Shown: positions 38,152-48,485 of the stretch, in pieces | Position numbering within the stretch: position 1 is the first letter of the stretch | Layout of the letters: every line of letters begins with the position of its first letter | Assembly (NCBI RefSeq): GCF_000425705.1 | Contig: NZ_AUDY01000011.1 | Span: 248,001 to 312,000 of the forward strand | DNA from: Halobacillus kuroshimensis DSM 18393 | GTDB lineage: Bacteria > Bacillota > Bacilli > Bacillales > Halobacillaceae | Length of the DNA: 64,000 nucleotides | Direction: 5' to 3' | Notes under the pieces: generated by a model | Seen by the model: only the letters and a program-made list of their open reading frames with translations | What the model was told of the DNA's origin: nothing | Database searches by the model: none | Program-made: the position numbers and the translations under genes

Positions 38152-38496
38152 AAAAGAACATAGATTGAAAGAGTTAACCCGTAAATATTTTGAAATATTT
38201 ATGAACAAATGTTCGTGTGTGATTGGCATGTGTGGAGACCAGGATAGAAAAAAGCGCCGATTTCTGCGGTTTAATGGGGGTTTTAGATAGCTGTTAGTTT
38301 CATTGTAACAAACTATCAGAAAATATAGTATATTTTAAGTGGTTAAAAATATGTTAAAACATTTTCAAGTACAGCGTTTTCATTCTCATTGATATTTCTT
38401 TGCCCTTCGGCATAATGTGACAAATATCTCTGTTCATGTGTGCTACTATAGTGAAAAGCAGCTTTGAAAAGGGCCATTCAACGGGGAGGGAGCGGG
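38152..38496. other. Intergenic region between katG and the PAS-STAS gene
   Basis: The region is AT-rich with no gene. TGCTACTAT near 38445-38453 has the form of an extended -10 box for the rightward gene. GGGGAGGG near 38482 is its ribosome binding site. Confidence 0.4.
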
Positions 38497-39261
38497 ATGA
38501 GAGAATCGACAGGACGCGCCTTATTTAATGAAGAAAAAGAAACCCTGCACAGGGAGATTACCGAATATTCCATGGAACCGACGGTCATCCACTGCGGTCA
38601 TGAAATTCTTCACATCAATGAAGCAGCTTCCGAGTTTTTTGGAGTGGCCAAAGACCAGATTATCGGGGGAAATGTCCTGGATGTATTTACAGAAGACTTT
38701 CGGTCTTTTATCCGGGAACGGATTAAGGAAGGGGAAGAGAAGGGAAGGATCGGGGAATTGGTGGAAACAACCGTATACCGGGCTGATGGTACGGTTGTGG
38801 AGGTGGAGCTTTTCTGTCATCCGATTCAATATGAAGAAACCAAGGCGATTCAATCCATCCTTCGTGATATGACCACACAGAAAGAAGCGGAGCGTGAACT
38901 GATCAAAGTCATGACCCCTATCGTCCCGCTGAAGGAAGGAATCGCTGTTCTTCCCCTGATCGGCACGATGAATCAAACAAGGACCGAGCATATGATGCAG
39001 CAGCTTTGCGCAGAAATCCCCCGCCACCGCCTCAACTACCTGATCATCGACGTTTCCGGATTGTATGATGTTGATGAACATGTCGGAAAACTACTCTATG
39101 AGCTCACAGGCGTTCTTAAGCTTCTAGGTATTTCCCCTATTTGTACAGGAATCCGGCCGGATATGGTGAGAAATACATTGAAGTTTCTCAATCAGGACGG
39201 GAGGGGGATGATTCCGACAATGGCATCGGTCAGTACGGCCCTCAAAAAAATAGCCTTCTAA
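38497..39261 (+). CDS. PAS-STAS regulatory protein (RsbR-like)
   Basis: The 254-residue protein has a PAS domain (about residues 20-135, with HINEAASEFFGVAKDQIIGG). It is followed by a STAS domain (about 145-250, with YLIIDVSGLYDVDEHVGKLL and CTGIRPDMVRNTL). This is the layout of RsbR-type stressosome and light/redox sensors that feed the general stress response. The conserved phospho-acceptor position in DVSG is Ser. The ATG at 38497 has GGGGAGGG upstream. No rsb partner genes are nearby. It converges on the pel operon. Confidence 0.85.
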   Translation: MRESTGRALFNEEKETLHREITEYSMEPTVIHCGHEILHINEAASEFFGVAKDQIIGGNVLDVFTEDFRSFIRERIKEGEEKGRIGELVETTVYRADGTVVEVELFCHPIQYEETKAIQSILRDMTTQKEAERELIKVMTPIVPLKEGIAVLPLIGTMNQTRTEHMMQQLCAEIPRHRLNYLIIDVSGLYDVDEHVGKLLYELTGVLKLLGISPICTGIRPDMVRNTLKFLNQDGRGMIPTMASVSTALKKIAF

Positions 39262-39367: not shown

Positions 39368-40840
39368 CTAGAAGAGGGTGCGTTTGTTCATCCATGCCCC
39401 CAGCTTTGTAAATGGTTTGCGCTTTTGCGTATAGGTGAGTGCCTGCGGCTGACAGAAAGCATGGTAGTCGACCTTCTCAATGAAAAGAATCAAGCGGGCT
39501 AATGCGAATACAAAGGCCAGCGTGGACCCAATCGAGAAACTCAGCCCATAGCCGTCATAGCCGAATGGGAGGAACAATACCGACAACCCGAGATTCAATA
39601 GGAAAAAGATGATGGATGTCCACATGGCTCCCCGCCGGTCTTCAAAATAGAGGAGGATCAGTGTGATCACAAGAACCATCGCATTGGCAAACGCACCGAT
39701 GGTCGTAAAGCGGAAAATCGATGCAATTTCAGGTTCCAGGGATAAGAAGGAGGCGATGCTTCCGATCGTCAGGAGAATCAATAAAGAGAAAAGCCCCTGA
39801 CTGCGGATCAAACGCTCCATTTCCTGCTTCAGTACGCGCTGCATCGCTGTTTTTGCAGTCTTGATCTGGGAAAGGGTGCCTCCTTCATTGATATAACCGT
39901 AAAAGACACGGTACCGCTCATAAAAACGCGTTTCAACGGAAACGACGAAAATGATCAGCGTAGGGATGATCGTTAAATACGACCAGAATATCGCCGTATC
40001 ATAAATCCGATGGTACAAAAAGGAGTCAAGCAGGAAGCCGTTTCCTTCACCGAACCAGATCACCCAGTTGCAGACCCAGATGCCGATATTGTACAAGAAT
40101 CCCGTCCAGAACAAGGAAGGAAAACGGTCGAAATAATCCAGGTAGCTGAACTGGTTTTCCTTCGACCTGTTTGGAAACGTCATGAGCATCGACATGAATA
40201 ACCCGAACAACGTCACGAGCATACCTGACGTAAATCCGGCTAGCAGAAAAAAGCTGTTGGAGTGTTCGAACACCGGAAACCAGGAAACGTTTTTTCCAAA
40301 CAGGAAGACGAGAAGGAGAGCCGCTCCGCCTCCGGCCAGGAAGCTGTAGGCCACGGCCTGGTAGAACTTCGCTGCGCTCAGGAATAAAAACAGCACCCAG
40401 ATCAGGTTGACGGTCACAAATAGAATCAGCATCAGCCATTTAAAGTAGTAAGGAAGCGGTGAAATCCAGAAGAAAATCAACCACCCGATAAAGGCTAGTC
40501 CAACCGTCACCTTCGTCATCCCGATAAACGTCGGAAAAATGGCCTCTGTCCGTTTTTCATAAAAAAGATCGGCGGTGTACCGCGTGACAACCAACTGCTG
40601 CACACCGAAAAGGACCTGGGAAAAGATGAAGCAGTACGCAACAGAAAGGTTGAACAATTCCCTCTCCTGCAGATCGAGCAGAGAGAAGAAGGAGGTCATC
40701 CACTGGATCACAGCGATGGTGGCAATGACGACAAGCCATGGACCGGAGGTGACCAGCCCTGCGAAAGCATAGGCTTTAATCCGGGAGGAGAAGTAGTCCT
40801 CCTGAAATAATTTCTGCAGCTTAAACCCGATTCCGGCCAT
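39368..40840 (-). CDS. pelG: Pel polysaccharide export protein PelG
   Basis: The 490-residue protein has about twelve spans and starts MAGIGFKLQKLFQEDYFSSR, the conserved PelG N-terminus. In Pseudomonas PelG is the Wzx-like inner-membrane transporter working with PelD, PelE and PelF. The ATG at 40840 has AAGGGGG upstream; a longer frame to 40963 lies inside pelF and is rejected. The start overlaps the end of pelF by 20 bases. It is the last gene of the operon. Confidence 0.93.
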   Translation of the reverse strand: MAGIGFKLQKLFQEDYFSSRIKAYAFAGLVTSGPWLVVIATIAVIQWMTSFFSLLDLQERELFNLSVAYCFIFSQVLFGVQQLVVTRYTADLFYEKRTEAIFPTFIGMTKVTVGLAFIGWLIFFWISPLPYYFKWLMLILFVTVNLIWVLFLFLSAAKFYQAVAYSFLAGGGAALLLVFLFGKNVSWFPVFEHSNSFFLLAGFTSGMLVTLFGLFMSMLMTFPNRSKENQFSYLDYFDRFPSLFWTGFLYNIGIWVCNWVIWFGEGNGFLLDSFLYHRIYDTAIFWSYLTIIPTLIIFVVSVETRFYERYRVFYGYINEGGTLSQIKTAKTAMQRVLKQEMERLIRSQGLFSLLILLTIGSIASFLSLEPEIASIFRFTTIGAFANAMVLVITLILLYFEDRRGAMWTSIIFFLLNLGLSVLFLPFGYDGYGLSFSIGSTLAFVFALARLILFIEKVDYHAFCQPQALTYTQKRKPFTKLGAWMNKRTLF

Positions 40841-42239
40841 AAGCGATCCCCCTTTCTGCATACAACTCTTTATACTGATCGATGAATTGGTGCACTTGAT
40901 AATACGTTTCTGCCCGTTTCTGTCCATTTTTTCCGAACTTCTCAGCTTCCTTGGGGTGCTCATAATACCATTGGCAGTGCTCGGCGATGGCTTTCGGGTT
41001 CACGGGAGGAACGACAAAGCCTGCCGGACCGTACGGATCATCTTCGCGTCCGTACATCAGCTCTGAGCAGGACCCGACGTCTGTAACCACATAGGGAATC
41101 CCTGCTGCCATGCCTTCAAGCACCGCCAGCGGCTGTCCTTCTGAAATACTTGTCAAAAGGCAGACATCAAAGTGAGGAAGGTAGTCTATGATATTAACTT
41201 TACCAGCAAGGGTGACGCAGTGATCGAGACTCAGCTGTTCAATCATCTGCCGGCATTCCTCCGCATACTCTTCCTCTTCATCAAGAGGTCCCATAATCGT
41301 CAGTTCAAATGGAACACCTTGATCATCAAGAATCTTGGCCGCATTGATCATCGTCTTAATATCCTTGATTGGAACAACCCGGACGATGGCTCCGATTTTA
41401 AGAACTTCTGCTTTAGGCAGCTTTCCAATTCCTGAAAGCCGGTCATAGTGAATGCCGTTCGGAATGACAGACAGCTTGTCTTCATCAGCTCCCAGTTCAT
41501 GTTGAAGACGGCTGTTGCGGTCGAACAGCGTAATCACATCATCTGCTTCTGAATAGGCCTGCTTCGATAAATGATGGAAAAATTGGACCCAGCGTTTTTT
41601 ATAGTATTCCGGAATCCATCCGGCCTGCAGAATTTCTTCCTCGCGCTCACGGGAATAGATCCCGTGTTCTGTGAGAAGGAATGGAATCCCTTGGCGCTGT
41701 TTGATGGCGGCCGCAATCAGTCCGGCATAGCCGGTGGAGGCAGAATGGATCAGGTCAAGGGCAGGGAAATCCGCCTGCAGCAGCTCCAGCACAGGCGTGA
41801 ACATGCCACGCCACATCCAGAAGTAGTCAATGAAGGACCCGGATTGGTTTTCAACACGGTAGCTTTCCTGAACCATATTCCAAAAAAGTTCGCTTGAAAA
41901 GAGTGCTTCGGTCGAACCGATTTTATTCTTGAAAATATCAAGCACATCCGGGGGAAGACGACGGAACATCATCCAATCCGTGAGTTTGTGCTGTTCTTCT
42001 TCGGTCAGCTTGACGCGCCGTTTTTTTGCGGCTGGTTTTAGATTCAATGGAAGGTTGATGACTTCCGTGATATTGGAAGGAAGCTCATAACGGTAATCGG
42101 CAGCAGTCATTTCCTCAGGGGTAATGGCAATAATGACGAACTCATGCTGAGGCATCTGTGCAGCAAGCATCTGTACCCAGCTTGCCACACCGCCGCTTAC
42201 GTAGGGGTAGCTCCCTTCAACGACCATTCCTATTCTCAC
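40821..42239 (-). CDS. pelF: Pel polysaccharide glycosyltransferase PelF
   Basis: PelF is the cytoplasmic GT4 enzyme that polymerises the Pel sugar from a UDP-sugar. The 472-residue protein starts MRIGMVVEGSYPYVSGGVASW, with the glycine-rich acceptor loop of PelF. It has LTEHGIYSREREEEI in the middle and SISEGQPLAVLEGMA near residue 370, carrying the GT4 E-x7-E motif. The start overlaps the pelA stop in an ATGA. Confidence 0.95.
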   Translation of the reverse strand: MRIGMVVEGSYPYVSGGVASWVQMLAAQMPQHEFVIIAITPEEMTAADYRYELPSNITEVINLPLNLKPAAKKRRVKLTEEEQHKLTDWMMFRRLPPDVLDIFKNKIGSTEALFSSELFWNMVQESYRVENQSGSFIDYFWMWRGMFTPVLELLQADFPALDLIHSASTGYAGLIAAAIKQRQGIPFLLTEHGIYSREREEEILQAGWIPEYYKKRWVQFFHHLSKQAYSEADDVITLFDRNSRLQHELGADEDKLSVIPNGIHYDRLSGIGKLPKAEVLKIGAIVRVVPIKDIKTMINAAKILDDQGVPFELTIMGPLDEEEEYAEECRQMIEQLSLDHCVTLAGKVNIIDYLPHFDVCLLTSISEGQPLAVLEGMAAGIPYVVTDVGSCSELMYGREDDPYGPAGFVVPPVNPKAIAEHCQWYYEHPKEAEKFGKNGQKRAETYYQVHQFIDQYKELYAERGIAYGRNRV

Positions 42240-44074
42240 AAGGCTTCATCCTTTTTCTTAATTTCAGCATACGGCTGGTTCAGTGTCACTTGATAAAGTG
42301 TGCCTGATTCACCGAGGGATTCGACAACACCATAGTCAAAGGATCCAGTCTCCAAACTTCCACTGTTCACCCTGACAAGAATTGTGGAAGGAGAGAGGAG
42401 GTTTTCCCCCTGAACAACAACCTGGTCGTCTTGATAGGTTACATCAATAACAGAAGCCTGGTACTGTTTCATTTTCTTTGTGGCGTCCGTCTGCCGCATT
42501 CCCTTCAGGTGGGTGTAGTGATCGTGAATATAGTGGAGCATATCTTCATAGGACTGCCTCATTTCCGGCCATCCACTGTCTCCGGACCTGTATGGATCGA
42601 GGACATCATCCGGGTGGATGAAGTGGGCGAATACCCCGAAGTTCGCAATCGCATCAATCTGGACGAAACGCTCTTCATCTGTCTCCCCATACCCGCTTGA
42701 AATCCTTGGGAAATGGTAGATGGATGGAAACTCACTGTTCGGTTCATATTCCTGTAAGAAGGCTCCTGTCTCCTTGTCACCCGTATACAAGCCGGATACA
42801 GCCTCAAGTTCCGGAAATACTTCGTGCAGAGCGCGTACCCCGGTTTCGTTTAATACATTGGAAGGGGGGACATAGGAATGAACACCCTTTTCCTTGAAAT
42901 AGTAGTCGAACAGTTCGTTCACCCGGTTTAGAGACTCTTCCATCTCGCCTTGATTCTGCCAAGGACGGTAGCCGTATTCAGGATCGATCGGTTCATCTGC
43001 TGTTACAAGAGACTGGTGATTATATCCATGAAGTCCAATCTCACCGTCCTCCTTCAATACCTTGCGTCCGAAATAAAGCATGGGGAAGCGTCTGGTTTCA
43101 ATCAGGTCTTCTGCTGTCATATCCATCGTGTCCTGATAGGTTCCAATCAAGTATCCGGTATAAATCACATCTTCTCCTTCTCCGATCCGCTTCATATCCT
43201 CCCACCAGACTTCCGAATAAAAGTCCTCCACAGTCAAATCGTAATCCCGCTGGATTACATCTGTCGTTCCACTGGGAACGGGAGATGGGAAGTCATCGAT
43301 ATGCATGACCTTAATACCCGCCTGTGAGGAAACAAAGGTTGGAGGCAGGAAGGATAAGGCCTGCAGCATTAACCCTCTTGAACTTTTTTCTGTAACAGAA
43401 GATGTGTTCCAGAACATTACCTTTCCTTCTCCGTAGCTGTTCGCCCATAAAATCGGGTGATCTTCTGCTGAAATGTAAACTTCGGCGGATTCGGCGAGTT
43501 CAACATCAGCGATGCTGTGGGAAAACAGCTGGGAATCTTCACCTAAATCCATATATCCAGGGAAAACTTCCTTCTCAAACGTCAACCCGTATATATCGTC
43601 GAGGAAATCCTCTACATCTTCCAAGCCTAGAAGCTCATTCCAATCAGCATTGATGAAGCGCGAAGCAATATACAGGCGGCCCCCTTTCTCCACGAAGGAG
43701 CGGATTTCTTCATAAGGCCATTCTTTTGAGTGCTCGCCTCCGAGAACGAGGACGTTATATGGGGAAGGCGTCAGCTCTTCCATTTCCTTTTTTGTTATCT
43801 CCTGATAGGAAACCTTAGCGTAGTCCATCGCGTATTCCAGGTTTTCCACTGCGTCCTTGGACAGAGGGGTATCATTTTTATGTACATAAACCTGAAGTTC
43901 TTCTCCTTCTGTGGGATTCTCCTCCGTGCTCATCGTTTCCACCGGTGTTCCTTGTGCTGATTCGGCAGGAAACCATTGATGAAACAGATCGAGACGCATA
44001 AATTGCAGAATGATAATGGCAGCAGTGAAAAGCAGGAAAAGAATCGATGCATAAATGGTGATTTGTTTTTTCAC
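42236..44074 (-). CDS. pelA: Pel polysaccharide deacetylase PelA (deacetylase-only form)
   Basis: The 612-residue protein has one N-terminal membrane anchor (about residues 5-25) and an extracellular part. The second half carries polysaccharide deacetylase signatures: IKVMHIDDFPSP (metal-binding Asp pair, near 265), GEIGLHGYNHQ (near 350) and FAHFIHPDD (near 505). Pseudomonas PelA joins a glycoside hydrolase and a deacetylase; here there is no hydrolase domain, and a separate secreted glycosidase is encoded divergently at 46417. Four-base ATGA overlaps couple it to pelE and pelF. Confidence 0.88.
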   Translation of the reverse strand: MKKQITIYASILFLLFTAAIIILQFMRLDLFHQWFPAESAQGTPVETMSTEENPTEGEELQVYVHKNDTPLSKDAVENLEYAMDYAKVSYQEITKKEMEELTPSPYNVLVLGGEHSKEWPYEEIRSFVEKGGRLYIASRFINADWNELLGLEDVEDFLDDIYGLTFEKEVFPGYMDLGEDSQLFSHSIADVELAESAEVYISAEDHPILWANSYGEGKVMFWNTSSVTEKSSRGLMLQALSFLPPTFVSSQAGIKVMHIDDFPSPVPSGTTDVIQRDYDLTVEDFYSEVWWEDMKRIGEGEDVIYTGYLIGTYQDTMDMTAEDLIETRRFPMLYFGRKVLKEDGEIGLHGYNHQSLVTADEPIDPEYGYRPWQNQGEMEESLNRVNELFDYYFKEKGVHSYVPPSNVLNETGVRALHEVFPELEAVSGLYTGDKETGAFLQEYEPNSEFPSIYHFPRISSGYGETDEERFVQIDAIANFGVFAHFIHPDDVLDPYRSGDSGWPEMRQSYEDMLHYIHDHYTHLKGMRQTDATKKMKQYQASVIDVTYQDDQVVVQGENLLSPSTILVRVNSGSLETGSFDYGVVESLGESGTLYQVTLNQPYAEIKKKDEAL

Positions 44075-44997
44075 AGCGCTTTTCCTCCCATCTGTTGGAT
44101 AATAAAGCGTTGGCTTTCTGGGATGTCCTCTTCCTTCACATGTTGGAAAAGGTCGTAGAGCACAGGCTTGATGTTTGTCCAGTCGCGTCCTGCATAGTAA
44201 AATTCAATCAATTTCAAGTAGCCTCCTGGATGGGCAGGGAAACGGCTGACCATCTCATGGAAAGCCTCCACCGCTTTTTCCTCTTTGCCACGGCGTATGT
44301 AATTATCGCCGAGGCTGCGGTACATCCATGGTTCTTTTTCAAGTTTCGGAACCATTTCTTCAAGCAGCTGTTCATACTGTTTCTCGAGCCGCGCCTGTCC
44401 GTTCTCATCGAGAATGCCGCTTCCCAGATAACGTTCGTACACGCTGCATAAACGCTCGAAAGACATCGGTGCTTCCGGGGCCAGTTCTTTTCTGGCATGT
44501 TCCAGTTCTTTTTCAAACCGGCTGGACAGCACGTTCATGGTTGTTGCTGCATAATGGACGGTTTCTGAATTGTTGTTGGTCAGGCCGAGGTTCAAGTGCC
44601 GGCCTTTATTGGAAATATCGGAATTGATCAGACTGACAATCAATTCTTTCTGGTTGGCGCCATCGTTCCTCAACAGGGCATCACTGATTGGCGATAAATC
44701 CATGCTTGACGATGCTTCATAACGCAGGTATTCAAGATTCAACGGCGTGAATGTGACATAATCATCGTAATCATCAATCATGTGATTGGTACCAAAAGCT
44801 TTCGCAGCCAGCCAGGCGGCCAATCCGAGAAGTTCTCCGATAATTGGGAGAAACAGGCTCGTAATGGCGAGCCATGTGATGGTTCCTTTTTTGTTTTCAT
44901 GCATTCTTTTTCGAAGCAGAAGGGAAACGATCAGAACGGTGAGGCCGTGAATAACATAGAAAAAGATCAGCCAGTAGGGTTCCTGGAAATTAACCAA
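44071..44997 (-). CDS. pelE: Pel biosynthesis protein PelE
   Basis: The 308-residue protein has two N-terminal spans, then a helical region with TPR-like repeats (MYRSLGDNYIRRGKEEKAVE near residue 230). This is the layout of PelE, the inner-membrane scaffold of the Pel synthase. A TTG at 44997 with AAGGCGGG upstream is the likely start, overlapping the pelD stop by eight bases; the longer frame to 45057 lies inside pelD. The assignment rests mainly on topology and on its place between pelD and pelA. Confidence 0.82.
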   Translation of the reverse strand: MVNFQEPYWLIFFYVIHGLTVLIVSLLLRKRMHENKKGTITWLAITSLFLPIIGELLGLAAWLAAKAFGTNHMIDDYDDYVTFTPLNLEYLRYEASSSMDLSPISDALLRNDGANQKELIVSLINSDISNKGRHLNLGLTNNNSETVHYAATTMNVLSSRFEKELEHARKELAPEAPMSFERLCSVYERYLGSGILDENGQARLEKQYEQLLEEMVPKLEKEPWMYRSLGDNYIRRGKEEKAVEAFHEMVSRFPAHPGGYLKLIEFYYAGRDWTNIKPVLYDLFQHVKEEDIPESQRFIIQQMGGKAL

Positions 44998-46225
44998 TGT
45001 GAATCCCGCCTTTTGTATCAAGTGCTTTGTAAATCCGCTCTTCGACGATGGATGCATTTTCGGAGCTCGTACCTGGAAGCAGGAAGTGGAAATGCTGCTC
45101 CGTCTGGTCGTACCCCATGATGTCCAATTCTCTCAAGTAGGCACGCAGAATGATTTCTGCTTCCACGACCGACATTTCCCTGTAAGGGCTGACATCGATG
45201 GAAACGACACTATAAGGCACACCGTATTTCTCCGCTCGTTTTTCCTGAAGCTGAACGAGTTCGTCAAAAGCCTCCTTATCATAAATATTTGTGCCTGGAT
45301 ACATCTTCTGCTCTTCTTCTTTACGAAGATATTCCCCGGCTCTTTCAATCCGGTTGGCCATCCAGTCGAGCACGAGAGAAAGGATTTGAACTTCATATTT
45401 CGTCAGTTTGGCAAAGTCGAGCTGATCAATGACAAGAACTTCCCGTACGTCCTGATTGTAGACGATCGGTCCGATCAGCACCGGAGCATCGGCTTCATCA
45501 TCAACTGTCTTTAAACAAATCGTTTTGTTTTTCAGTCCGCGTGAGAAAATCGAGGCCGCATCATCGATGAAAATCGTTTGCGGAAGTCGTTCGGTATTTC
45601 CTTTTCGAACGCGGAGGCGCAGCGATTTCTTAGAAGAGTCGACATGATATACAGCTAAGTCTTCCGCTTCAAACAGGTCTCCGATGATCGTAACCGCTTC
45701 GTTTCGGACAAGTTCTGGAGAAGGCTGATCAAGCGTCTTTCCGACTTCATAAATCCGGGAAAGGGTGTACTCGGAATCAAGGACCTTTGCCTGCATGACC
45801 CGCTGAGACCGTTCCAGAGCGGTTAAAGATGTTTTCAGTTCCTCATTTTCATCTTTCGTTTCCTTCAGCACATACTGCTGACTTTCATACCTTTCCCGGA
45901 AGGACGTGCTGTACAGCCCTGTAATGACGCCGGCCAGGAGCAGGAAGAGGAGCGATAAATAATTGGCGGGATCATAGAATAAGAGAAATAAGTCCCCATC
46001 CCGCTGATAAATGTCATACACATGATAGATTAATGCAGCAAAAAAGCTCAAAAGAGCAAAATTCAGACCGTATCTGAGGGAAAACAAAAGGACAGCAAAG
46101 AACACAGGGTTCAGCGTCCATTCCAGCATGTCCCATTCCAACCACTGATCAAGGAATCCCAATACTGAAAATACGAGAATCAGTTCAATAAACTTCCGGA
46201 TAAAACTGGATTGTTGGTAGAACAT
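44990..46225 (-). CDS. pelD: c-di-GMP receptor PelD
   Basis: PelD switches on the Pel synthase when it binds c-di-GMP. The 411-residue protein has four N-terminal spans (to about residue 105), a coiled coil, a GAF domain (about 160-300) and a C-terminal degenerate GGDEF domain. The inhibitory-site motif RxxD is present as RELD (residues 365-368). The GGDEF position after it reads YDQTEQHFHFLLPGT, so the domain binds but should not make c-di-GMP. GGAGGTGA precedes the ATG. It is the first gene of the operon. Confidence 0.92.
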   Translation of the reverse strand: MFYQQSSFIRKFIELILVFSVLGFLDQWLEWDMLEWTLNPVFFAVLLFSLRYGLNFALLSFFAALIYHVYDIYQRDGDLFLLFYDPANYLSLLFLLLAGVITGLYSTSFRERYESQQYVLKETKDENEELKTSLTALERSQRVMQAKVLDSEYTLSRIYEVGKTLDQPSPELVRNEAVTIIGDLFEAEDLAVYHVDSSKKSLRLRVRKGNTERLPQTIFIDDAASIFSRGLKNKTICLKTVDDEADAPVLIGPIVYNQDVREVLVIDQLDFAKLTKYEVQILSLVLDWMANRIERAGEYLRKEEEQKMYPGTNIYDKEAFDELVQLQEKRAEKYGVPYSVVSIDVSPYREMSVVEAEIILRAYLRELDIMGYDQTEQHFHFLLPGTSSENASIVEERIYKALDTKGGIHIG

Positions 46226-46254: not shown

Positions 46255-46281
46255 TTTAACATGTTAAACGTGTGGTATAAT
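46255..46281 (+). promoter_or_regulatory. Promoter with a perfect palindrome between pelD and the glycosidase gene
   Basis: TTTAACATGTTAAA (46255-46268) is a perfect 14-base palindrome. It is followed by an extended -10 box, TG-G-TATAAT (46273-46281). The palindrome covers the -35 position of the rightward promoter and lies about 30 bases before the pelD start on the other strand. A repressor bound here could affect both directions. No clear promoter for pelD could be defined. Confidence 0.6.
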
Positions 46282-46302
46282 GTGGATAAAATTGAATAGA
46301 GA

Positions 46303-46385
46303 AAGGCAGACTTATCGAAAGGTAAGGGCGCAAAGACATGGGTCTCAGGTCCCTCCAGGAGCCGATAGCCAGTCTGCAATGCCAC
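46303..46385 (+). promoter_or_regulatory. c-di-GMP-I (GEMM-I) riboswitch
   Basis: The leader has the ordered features of the GEMM-I aptamer. A closing arm GGCAGACT (from 46305) pairs with AGTCTGC (46371-46377). A hairpin CTTATC-GAAA-GGTAAG has the GNRA tetraloop. The conserved core GGCGCAAAGACATGGGTCT follows. A second hairpin then leads to GCCGATAGCCAG. The extended -10 box ends 24 bases upstream, and the glycosidase start is 32 bases downstream. After the aptamer CTCTCTG can pair with CAGGAG of the ribosome binding site, so control may be at translation. Whether c-di-GMP switches the gene on or off cannot be told. Confidence 0.85.
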
Positions 46386-46416
46386 AGCCGCTCTCTGGAA
46401 AATCAGGAGGCGTATC

Positions 46417-47259
46417 ATGGGTGTTTTCACAAAGATGAAATGGAGTTTTCTTGCTGTTTTAGCCGCTGGTCTTGTACTTTCCCCTCTATCTACTTCTGCA
46501 CAATCTTCTCATCCACTTTCCAATGTGCAGTCCTATAAAATTTATTATGATTCTCCGACCGAAGCGATCTTGAATAAGATGCAGGCGTATGATGCTGTCA
46601 TGATTGAACCGGTGTTCTATACTAAAAGCCAGATTGAAACGATTCAGCAGTCCGGGACACTGGTGTATGGGTACATCAACACGATGGAAGCCGATAACTG
46701 GAATACTGCGCTGATCAGTCAGCTGGAGGAGTCCGACTTTTTCCACCGTGATGGGGAGCGTGTCTATTATCCGGAATGGGATTCTTACCTGACCGATATC
46801 ACCTCTGAGCATTACCAGCAGGTGCTTCTTGCTGAGATTGAGAAACAGGTGGCTGATAAAGGCTTGGACGGTGTCTTTTTAGATACCGTCGGTAATATCG
46901 ATAATGAACACTGCGGATCTGATGTGCTGGATGAGCAGCGCGCTGGTATGGCCGTCTTTCTGCAGGAGATCCGGCTCCAACACCCTTCCTTGTCCCTTAT
47001 TCAAAACTGGGGATTCGGCACATTGTCGACAACGACGTATCCTTATGTAGACGGCATTATGTGGGAGAATTACAATCACTCTTCGGTAGCGAAAGACCAA
47101 TGGTCCCTGGACCGCATGCAGGATTTGAAGCAGCTTCGCCGGGAAACAGGTCTGGAAATATTAACCGTCTCCTTCTCTCAGAAGTCCAAAAGTCAGGCGC
47201 TGGCAGAAAGTCACGGGTTCATCCATTATCATGAATCCAGCCATTATAATGCTTGGTAA
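46417..47259 (+). CDS. Secreted GH114/GH166-like glycosidase, probable Pel hydrolase
   Basis: The 280-residue protein has a cleavable signal peptide (ending near STSAQSS, residue 27). Its catalytic domain is of the endo-alpha-1,4-polygalactosaminidase/TM1410 type: GYINTMEADNW near residue 86, then GLDGVFLDTVGNIDN (about 149-163), whose Asp residues form the expected active site. Related domains form the hydrolase half of Pseudomonas PelA, which cleaves the galactosamine-rich Pel polymer. The gene lies divergently from pelD, behind a c-di-GMP-I riboswitch, so a role in trimming or releasing Pel is likely. AGGAGG lies 6 bases before the ATG. Confidence 0.87.
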   Translation: MGVFTKMKWSFLAVLAAGLVLSPLSTSAQSSHPLSNVQSYKIYYDSPTEAILNKMQAYDAVMIEPVFYTKSQIETIQQSGTLVYGYINTMEADNWNTALISQLEESDFFHRDGERVYYPEWDSYLTDITSEHYQQVLLAEIEKQVADKGLDGVFLDTVGNIDNEHCGSDVLDEQRAGMAVFLQEIRLQHPSLSLIQNWGFGTLSTTTYPYVDGIMWENYNHSSVAKDQWSLDRMQDLKQLRRETGLEILTVSFSQKSKSQALAESHGFIHYHESSHYNAW

Positions 47260-47337: not shown

Positions 47338-47370
47338 GAAGGGAGCCTAAAGATGGGCTCCTTTCCTTTT
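47338..47370 (+). terminator. Terminator after the glycosidase gene
   Basis: GGAGCC pairs with GGCTCC around a short loop, followed by a T-rich tract. Confidence 0.7.
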
Positions 47371-47435: not shown

Positions 47436-48485
47436 ATGATCTTAGTTACAGGCGGGGCCGGATACATAGGAAGCCATATCTGTCTTGAATTATTGGAGCG
47501 GAACCATGAGGTTGTCGTCATTGATAACTTATACAACAGCCACCCGGAATCACTGCTCCGTGTACAGGAGCTTACAGGGAAGACGCTGACGTTCGTTGAA
47601 GGGGATCTGCTGGATCAGGACCTGATACGAAAGGTCTTTGAGGACTACGGCATTACAGCGGTCATTCATCTGGCAGGACTGAAGGCGGTCGGTGAATCCG
47701 TCTCTATGCCACTCACGTACTACCATAACAACATTACCGGGACACTGATGCTGTGTGAAGTGATGAAGGAATTCGGCGTCAAACAGCTGATCTTTTCTTC
47801 CTCGGCGACTGTTTATGGTACACCGGACTCTCTTCCTCTTACGGAAAGCGCGTCTGTCGGAGCTGCCAATCCTTATGGGCGGACAAAGCTGATGCTTGAG
47901 GAGATCCTTCAGGATTTATATGTCTCCGATGAAGCATGGAGCATATCCGTGCTGCGTTATTTCAATCCAATCGGTTCCCACTCCAGTGGAAGAATCGGGG
48001 AGGATCCGGCTGGTATTCCGAACAACCTGATGCCTTATATTACAAAGGTGGCTGTGGGCCACTTCCCTGATTTGAAGGTGTTTGGGGATGACTACCCGAC
48101 CGTGGACGGTACAGGAGTCCGGGACTATATCCACGTCGTGGACCTGGCGAGAGGCCACGTCCATGCACTGGAAAAGACGGCCGGGGAAACCGGGATCGAG
48201 ACGTACAACCTTGGAACAGGCGAAGGATACAGTGTCCTCCAACTTGTCCAGGCTTTTGAAAAAGCTTCCGGCCGGAAAGTCCCTTATGAAATTCAGGACC
48301 GTCGTCCCGGAGATATTGCGGAGTGCTTCGCAGACCCGGCCAAAGCTCATTTGAAGCTGGGGTGGCAGGCAGAGAAAACGATCGATGATATGTGTGTGGA
48401 CTCCTGGAACTGGCGGAAGCAGAATCCTGAAGGCTATACAGGAGAGAAAAATGCTTCCAAGCAGGAGCTTATCGGACAAAGGTGA
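47436..48485 (+). CDS. galE: UDP-glucose/UDP-GlcNAc 4-epimerase GalE
   Basis: GalE interconverts UDP-glucose and UDP-galactose, and often the N-acetylated forms. The 349-residue protein has the NAD-binding start ILVTGGAGYIGSHICLEL, the catalytic Ser in FSSSATVYG, and the YGRTK motif with the catalytic Tyr and Lys. Being next to the pel genes, it could supply UDP-GalNAc for Pel, as PelX does in Pseudomonas protegens; this is an inference. AGGAGGAG precedes the ATG. Confidence 0.93.
   Translation: MILVTGGAGYIGSHICLELLERNHEVVVIDNLYNSHPESLLRVQELTGKTLTFVEGDLLDQDLIRKVFEDYGITAVIHLAGLKAVGESVSMPLTYYHNNITGTLMLCEVMKEFGVKQLIFSSSATVYGTPDSLPLTESASVGAANPYGRTKLMLEEILQDLYVSDEAWSISVLRYFNPIGSHSSGRIGEDPAGIPNNLMPYITKVAVGHFPDLKVFGDDYPTVDGTGVRDYIHVVDLARGHVHALEKTAGETGIETYNLGTGEGYSVLQLVQAFEKASGRKVPYEIQDRRPGDIAECFADPAKAHLKLGWQAEKTIDDMCVDSWNWRKQNPEGYTGEKNASKQELIGQR

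Follow-up and report, generated by a model that had tools for sequence, protein, structure and literature searches.

A c-di-GMP-I aptamer in the leader of the probable Pel hydrolase gene pelAH in Halobacillus kuroshimensis and other Bacilli, with a predicted OFF-switch layout

A c-di-GMP-I riboswitch aptamer was located directly upstream of a pelAH-like gene, encoding a predicted hydrolase of the biofilm polymer Pel, in a 64-kb stretch of Halobacillus kuroshimensis DSM 18393 DNA (hereafter the window). Judged from sequence, it is near certain that a riboswitch sits on the pelAH leader, with binding of the ligand being predicted. From the modelled folds of this leader we infer that it probably acts as an OFF switch for translation, such that c-di-GMP would silence the hydrolase.

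Aptamer, hydrolase gene and divergent pel operon

A covariance search of the leader returned a full-length match to Rfam RF01051 (model positions 1-87 of 87; E = 2.7e-9) at 60.2 bits against a gathering threshold of 35, in agreement with the riboswitch class that a sequence-only reading of the same DNA had proposed. This was the sole RF01051 match at the gathering threshold within the window and the single match in the whole 3.85-Mb genome. The GNRA-capped first hairpin described in that reading was recovered as a GAAA loop capping the first aptamer helix, and its core and closing motifs, GGCGCAAAGACATGGGTCT and GCCGATAGCCAG, are both present in the leader. The three-way core with the second helix is also present, and 17 of 17 modelled core pairs can form. 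The span originally assigned, 46303-46416, covers most of the aptamer, but the aptamer begins 8 nt earlier and ends at 46381; the rest of that span, 46381 to 46416, is the expression platform. The aptamer lies in the 5' leader of a coding gene, with 35 nt, containing competing helices, between its end and the pelAH start.

Putative ligand contacts were assigned by Rfam position to G46305 (Vc2 G20) and A46332 (Vc2 A47), and by our own alignment to C46377 (Vc2 C92). In PMC11218506, the Bc1 RNA of Bacillus has G11, A38 and C81 at the positions of these Vc2 contacts. Other aptamer sites in Halobacillus head EAL-type and chemotaxis-receptor-like genes, among others, as judged from translations read by eye.

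The protein encoded downstream matched GHL15 (48.6 bits, cut-off 27) and Glyco_hydro_114 (44.7 bits, cut-off 27), and its best solved-structure match was the hydrolase domain of Pseudomonas aeruginosa PelA (5tcb, E = 1.5e-6), which bears out the earlier assignment to a GH114-type hydrolase. An N-terminal signal-like segment was recognized by eye. E217, within a WEN motif, is the probable catalytic acid; its position fits that of Bacillus cereus E213, an equivalence proposed from position rather than alignment, with the 5tcb alignment stopping at residue 204. The product is a predicted hydrolase that, on these sequence features, is probably secreted and probably cuts the cell's own biofilm polymer.

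Opposite pelAH, the divergent pel operon that had been claimed was found in the order pelD, pelE, pelADA, pelF, pelG (Table 1). PelF and PelG exceeded curated cut-offs, and the assignment of pelD, pelE and pelADA is based on order, size and weaker matches. The true pelG start probably lies inside the listed open reading frame. PelD gave a weak GAF_3 match (below cut-off) and a weak match to the GGDEF-type chain 6khu (E = 3e-4). The RELD I-site attributed to this protein was likewise present, at nearly the position of R363/D366 in the B. cereus protein, residues reported as required for c-di-GMP binding and biofilm (PMC7112168). The genome carries 8 GGDEF and 5 EAL places. Downstream of pelG, on the opposite strand (window 38464-39261), a PAS plus STAS-like protein is encoded, a possible signalling partner.

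Between the divergent starts of pelD and pelAH lies a 14-bp palindrome, TTTAACATGTTAAA, which the sister locus of H. litoralis also has and which is possibly an operator. The TATAAT hexamer ahead of the aptamer is, on sequence, the probable -10 element of the pelAH promoter. From this element, transcription would be expected to start near 46288-46290, just ahead of the aptamer. A sigma-70 scan did not list this hexamer because the match at -35 is poor. Beyond the gene, the modelled hairpin at 47338-47365 is a probable terminator between pelAH and galE, and was absent from the list returned by a terminator scan. Given this strong hairpin between the genes, the switch probably serves pelAH alone, and control of galE by the same leader was rejected as less likely.

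Table 1. Features of the pelAH leader and pel locus (window coordinates)
Feature	Position	Strand	Basis
pelG	39368..40963	-	PF16933, 467.5 bits
pelF	40821..42239	-	NCBIfam NF038011, 365.6 bits
pelADA	42236..44074	-	DUF2194, 338 bits; taken as deacetylase from position and literature
pelE	44071..45057	-	by position; TPR-like match below cut-off
pelD, 411 aa, RELD at residues 365-368	44990..46225	-	weak matches
14-bp palindrome TTTAACATGTTAAA, candidate operator	46255..46268	.	exact coordinates; in the pelD-pelAH intergenic region
Probable -10 TATAAT, preceded by TGG (extended -10)	46276..46281	+	sequence
c-di-GMP-I aptamer	46295..46381	+	Rfam RF01051, 60.2 bits
Alternative (anti-sequestor) helix, 5' strand: UAGAGA 46297-46302 and GGC 46305-46307	46297..46307	+	minimum-energy fold
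Alternative helix, 3' strand: GCC 46387-46389 and UCUCUG 46392-46397	46387..46397	+	leader fold
Anti-SD strand, partner 46404-46412	46389..46397	+	fold with aptamer forced
Shine-Dalgarno AGGAGG of pelAH	46405..46410	+	sequence
pelAH-like gene, 280 aa	46417..47259	+	ATG at 46417; GHL15, Glyco_hydro_114
Terminator-like hairpin, then T-rich stretch	47338..47365	+	local fold -19.3 kcal/mol
galE-like epimerase	47436..48485	+	open reading frame and domain match

Leader folding and the predicted direction of control

The proposed mechanism turns on one segment with two partners, the UCUCUG tract being shared by the alternative helix and the anti-SD strand. Without c-di-GMP, 46387-46397 would pair back on the aptamer 5' strand (46297-46307), including the ligand-contacting G, so that the aptamer core would be broken, the Shine-Dalgarno sequence (SD) free and the hydrolase made. 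With c-di-GMP, the aptamer would keep its 5' strand, the released segment would fold on the SD (46404-46412) and translation would stop.

Comparable layouts were distinguished among the leaders of other pelAH-like genes that carry the aptamer. In platform A (the window, its sister, G366 and family f62), UAGAGA or UCGAGA plus GGC can pair with GCC plus UCUCU(G), and UCUCUG alternatively pairs with the SD. In platform B, GGUGAUGGG pairs with CCCAUC and AUCCCUC with the SD sequence GAGGGAU; several members have at least five U residues after the SD helix, which would also resemble a terminator. In platform D (family f80) the partner of AAGGGC is GCCCUU, which forms the 5' arm of a terminator, and platform C has two members, G364 and G189. 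The alternative helix of platforms A, B and D takes G11 (Vc2 G20) and G12, both of which are required by the bound aptamer.

Folding was modelled for 23 of 28 leaders; those omitted were G478 and G669 (close copies), G107 (long insert), and G364 and G189 (other platform). When the aptamer was forced, the SD (or, in terminator leaders, the 3' arm) was paired with the local upstream segment at a mean of at least 0.74 in 22 of the 23 leaders, the value for G110 being only 0.30. With the alternative helix forced, the same pairing was at most 0.19 in 20 of the 22 leaders where forcing worked; G072 lacks this helix. For the window, SD pairing was 0.83 with the aptamer forced, 0.00 with the alternative helix and 0.11 in the free ensemble. 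Given that the forced aptamer closes the SD and the forced alternative helix opens it, c-di-GMP should close the SD. The sequence-only reading named no sign of control; these leaders point to OFF.

The opposite sign, in which bound c-di-GMP would free the SD and the hydrolase would be made alongside Pel for trimming or release rather than dispersal, is considered unlikely. Such ON control by c-di-GMP-I aptamers is known for the triple-tandem Bc3-5 of Bacillus, as described in PMC4759541, and the P. aeruginosa PelA protein outlined in PMC13254593 combines hydrolase and deacetylase and is made with its operon. The outer helix UAGAGA/UCUCUG uses no core bases when taken alone, and in principle a bound aptamer could accommodate it; the two leaders of platform C may differ in sign. 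However, G11, G12 and C13, needed by the bound aptamer, are also drawn into the alternative helix, and the closed SD that followed from forcing the aptamer in nearly all modelled leaders runs counter to an ON switch.

The OFF reading was examined further in free ensembles, truncated transcripts and shuffled controls. The SD or terminator arm was already paired at 0.70 or more in the free ensemble of 15 of 23 leaders; for these leaders, equilibrium folding alone therefore predicts little switching, and the model needs co-transcriptional folding. When transcripts were truncated ahead of the SD or terminator arm, pairing of G11 to downstream bases reached a probability of at least 0.97 in 22 of 23 leaders. 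Given that 651 of 1380 shuffled leaders also reached 0.95, a result attributed to the ease with which the GGC/GGGC strand pairs, this behavior counts as weak support.

Of 12 leaders compared with 500 shuffles each, only 3 had a duplex stronger than 95% of the shuffles. The window was the strongest case, with 0 shuffles as strong, followed by G366 (21) and G318 (23); the duplex of G047 was worse than most of its shuffles, 409 of 500 being as strong. Within-group pairings had the best mean duplex energies (A -11.9, B -12.0 and D -13.2 kcal/mol), the next-best means being -11.0, -10.3 and -9.2 kcal/mol, respectively, and the combination of A with D came close (-11.0 versus -11.9). One compensatory change, G-C to A-U, was seen in the platform B leader G110, and that helix contains a mismatch in G047. 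The pairings of groups A and B are out of register in alignment A2. Whole-leader stability was tried and rejected as evidence: the mean-field fold gave a z-score of -0.92, with 36 of 200 shuffles as stable, so stability alone provides no evidence.

Recurrence of the aptamer on pelAH genes across Bacilli

The sequence-only reading had treated this pairing as a single locus. The locus itself stands, but the pairing is not confined to it: a c-di-GMP-I aptamer lies upstream of a pelAH-like gene, on the same strand, in 28 of the 71 pelAH genomes found, and these 28 carriers come from 14 families of Bacilli. PelAH searches returned 39 of 397 genomes at order level (E 1e-30), 31 of 398 at class level (E 1e-40), 11 of 44 in the host family (E 1e-20) and 4 of 19 in a further family; thresholds differ between these samples, and the draws are samples. 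The 71 genomes comprise the 39 and 31, with 3 shared (G071, G121 and G000, the last being the window genome), plus 3 from the family search and 1 more (G425). The order sample held 15 carriers among its 39 PelAH genomes and the class sample 14 among 31, G000 included, so that the 28 consist of 15 in the first set and 13 at class level.

All listed PelAH copies were scanned with a covariance model, R1, built from 20 c-di-GMP-I sequences. The window genome and G010 are in its alignment and match by construction, and Rfam finds both independently. The first 15 carriers contained 63 RF01051 matches, 62 of them over the cut-off, with exactly one before pelAH in each genome; in G000, G010 and G078 the pelAH aptamer is the sole RF01051 match. 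The 13 further carriers all reached an Rfam gathering threshold, 12 with RF01051 and 1 with RF03167, a family of the same clan. In 28 of 28 carriers, PelG gave a match above the cut-off. In G277 (contig C10, 673105-674486), this match is split into two pieces that overlap, with a single internal stop, and the adjacent pelAH retains its riboswitch.

In 13 genomes the aptamer-bearing gene is transcribed divergently from the pel operon; in 6 it follows pelG on the same strand, in 2 it converges on pelG, and in 1 it precedes pelG by ~9 kb, again on the same strand. Four genomes have it elsewhere on the same contig, at a distance of 0.3-0.4 Mb, and 2 have it on another contig. The aptamer thus tracks the pelAH gene and not its genomic place. 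On a tree of 47 PelAH copies (the order sample and two families), the aptamer label changes at least 9 times, 5 changes being forced by well-supported branches; the aptamer has therefore been gained or lost several times. In the sister locus (L008), a pelAH 84% identical to that of the window carries the same aptamer.

Several loci depart from the common pattern. At about 36% identity, the hydrolases of G364 and G189 are remote relatives, and they may fall outside PelAH proper. Their genes, convergent to pelG, are preceded by a different aptamer type and platform (L073 2472-2559 and L078 2546-2630), with a U-run directly after the aptamer in L073. These riboswitches may have been recruited separately, and their sign of control could be the reverse. 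A large insert in the loop of the second aptamer helix was observed in Ectobacillus antri (L010 8434-8980), G107 and G168 (L048, L052). In L010 the insert includes a pair of 124-nt repeats that are 99% identical and a 51-nt repeat present in two identical copies; beyond it the sequence returns to the 3' half of the aptamer.

No other RNA family was detected in the 20 loci scanned among the riboswitch-less pelAH leaders, the remaining copies having been scanned with R1 only. In Halobacillus alkaliphilus (L009 8820-8965), pelAH has a long leader with no c-di-GMP aptamer. The hydrolase query gave zero matches against plasmids, and the further-family search of 19 genomes gave no PelAH match in any genome of the B. 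cereus-like genus.

These data also bear on whether the aptamer regulates at all. A relic, or an aptamer that binds with little or no output, is improbable, more so than an ON switch. Such a case is on record, given that Bc1 of Bacillus is described as binding c-di-GMP yet hardly regulating (PMC11218506). The scores of the window (60.2 bits) and its sister (56.7 bits) are the lowest of the seven aptamer sites in the genus Halobacillus, and occurrence in the host family is patchy (just 2 of 11 pelAH genomes). Against this, the core and contact positions are intact, and aptamer and platform have been kept together in 14 families though pelAH moved to several places.

Some members of the c-di-GMP-I class sense other cyclic dinucleotides such as 3',3'-cGAMP, the cGAMP-selective type having an A at the position of Vc2 G20; that the pelAH leader senses such a ligand is very improbable, since the window has a G at this contact, the genome encodes GGDEF and EAL proteins, and the neighbouring PelD has a c-di-GMP I-site motif.

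The preferred reading of a c-di-GMP-responsive OFF switch can be joined to the action of PelD. Given that PelD needs c-di-GMP for activation of the synthase, one messenger would turn synthesis on through a protein and the hydrolase off through an RNA. On a fall in c-di-GMP, Pel synthesis would stop and the secreted cutter would be released. That such a reciprocal switch operates Bacilli-wide, with PelD turning synthesis on, a riboswitch kept with the moving pelAH on at least three unlike platforms (an SD sequestor in two forms and a terminator) turning the hydrolase off, and a fall in c-di-GMP serving as the dispersal signal, seems somewhat more plausible than the contrary, and is held less firmly than the OFF direction for the window leader. 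An effect of this kind on biofilm would be consistent with B. cereus, in which deletion of pelAH is reported to raise biofilm and PelD to need c-di-GMP (PMC7112168).

Comparison with known systems

If this model is correct, a single messenger governs the making and the cutting of a biofilm polymer via protein and RNA receptors of opposite sign. It would provide a concrete dispersal mechanism for Gram-positive Pel producers, for which the stand-alone hydrolase gene was known, and the 14 families would offer many natural variants of the coupling between a c-di-GMP-I aptamer and translation or termination. The literature search, with subscription-journal originals on the riboswitch class outside its scope, returned no paper linking a c-di-GMP riboswitch to a Pel hydrolase, and the term "riboswitch" has 0 occurrences in the main text of PMC7112168 and of PMC13254593. 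The riboswitch class and pelAH are already known; within the literature searched, what is unreported, and repeatedly conserved, is the aptamer's place on pelAH.

The window aptamer shares its fold and contact positions with the RF01051 members Bc1, Bc2 and Bc3-5 of Bacillus thuringiensis, and sequestor/anti-sequestor control has been described for the class (PMC11218506). The targets differ: those given for Bacillus in PMC5816809 include mcp (Bc1) and cap (Bc2), whereas that of the window is a Pel hydrolase. Likewise, Bc3-5 has been proposed in PMC4759541 to be a transcriptional ON switch, whereas the modelled window leader has a translational OFF layout.

As presented in PMC7112168, the pelDEADAFG operon of B. 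cereus ATCC 10987 has the same gene set and a PelD RxxD I-site, and the divergent pelAH arrangement is already published there. Both pelAH and galE are transcribed away from that operon, as in the window, but galE lies at the other operon end in B. cereus and behind pelAH in the window. The B. cereus PelAH disrupts or removes Pel biofilms in the same account. By contrast, P. aeruginosa PelA, the closest solved structure to the window protein, has its hydrolase fused to a deacetylase (PMC13254593), whereas the window enzyme is stand-alone and predicted to be secreted.
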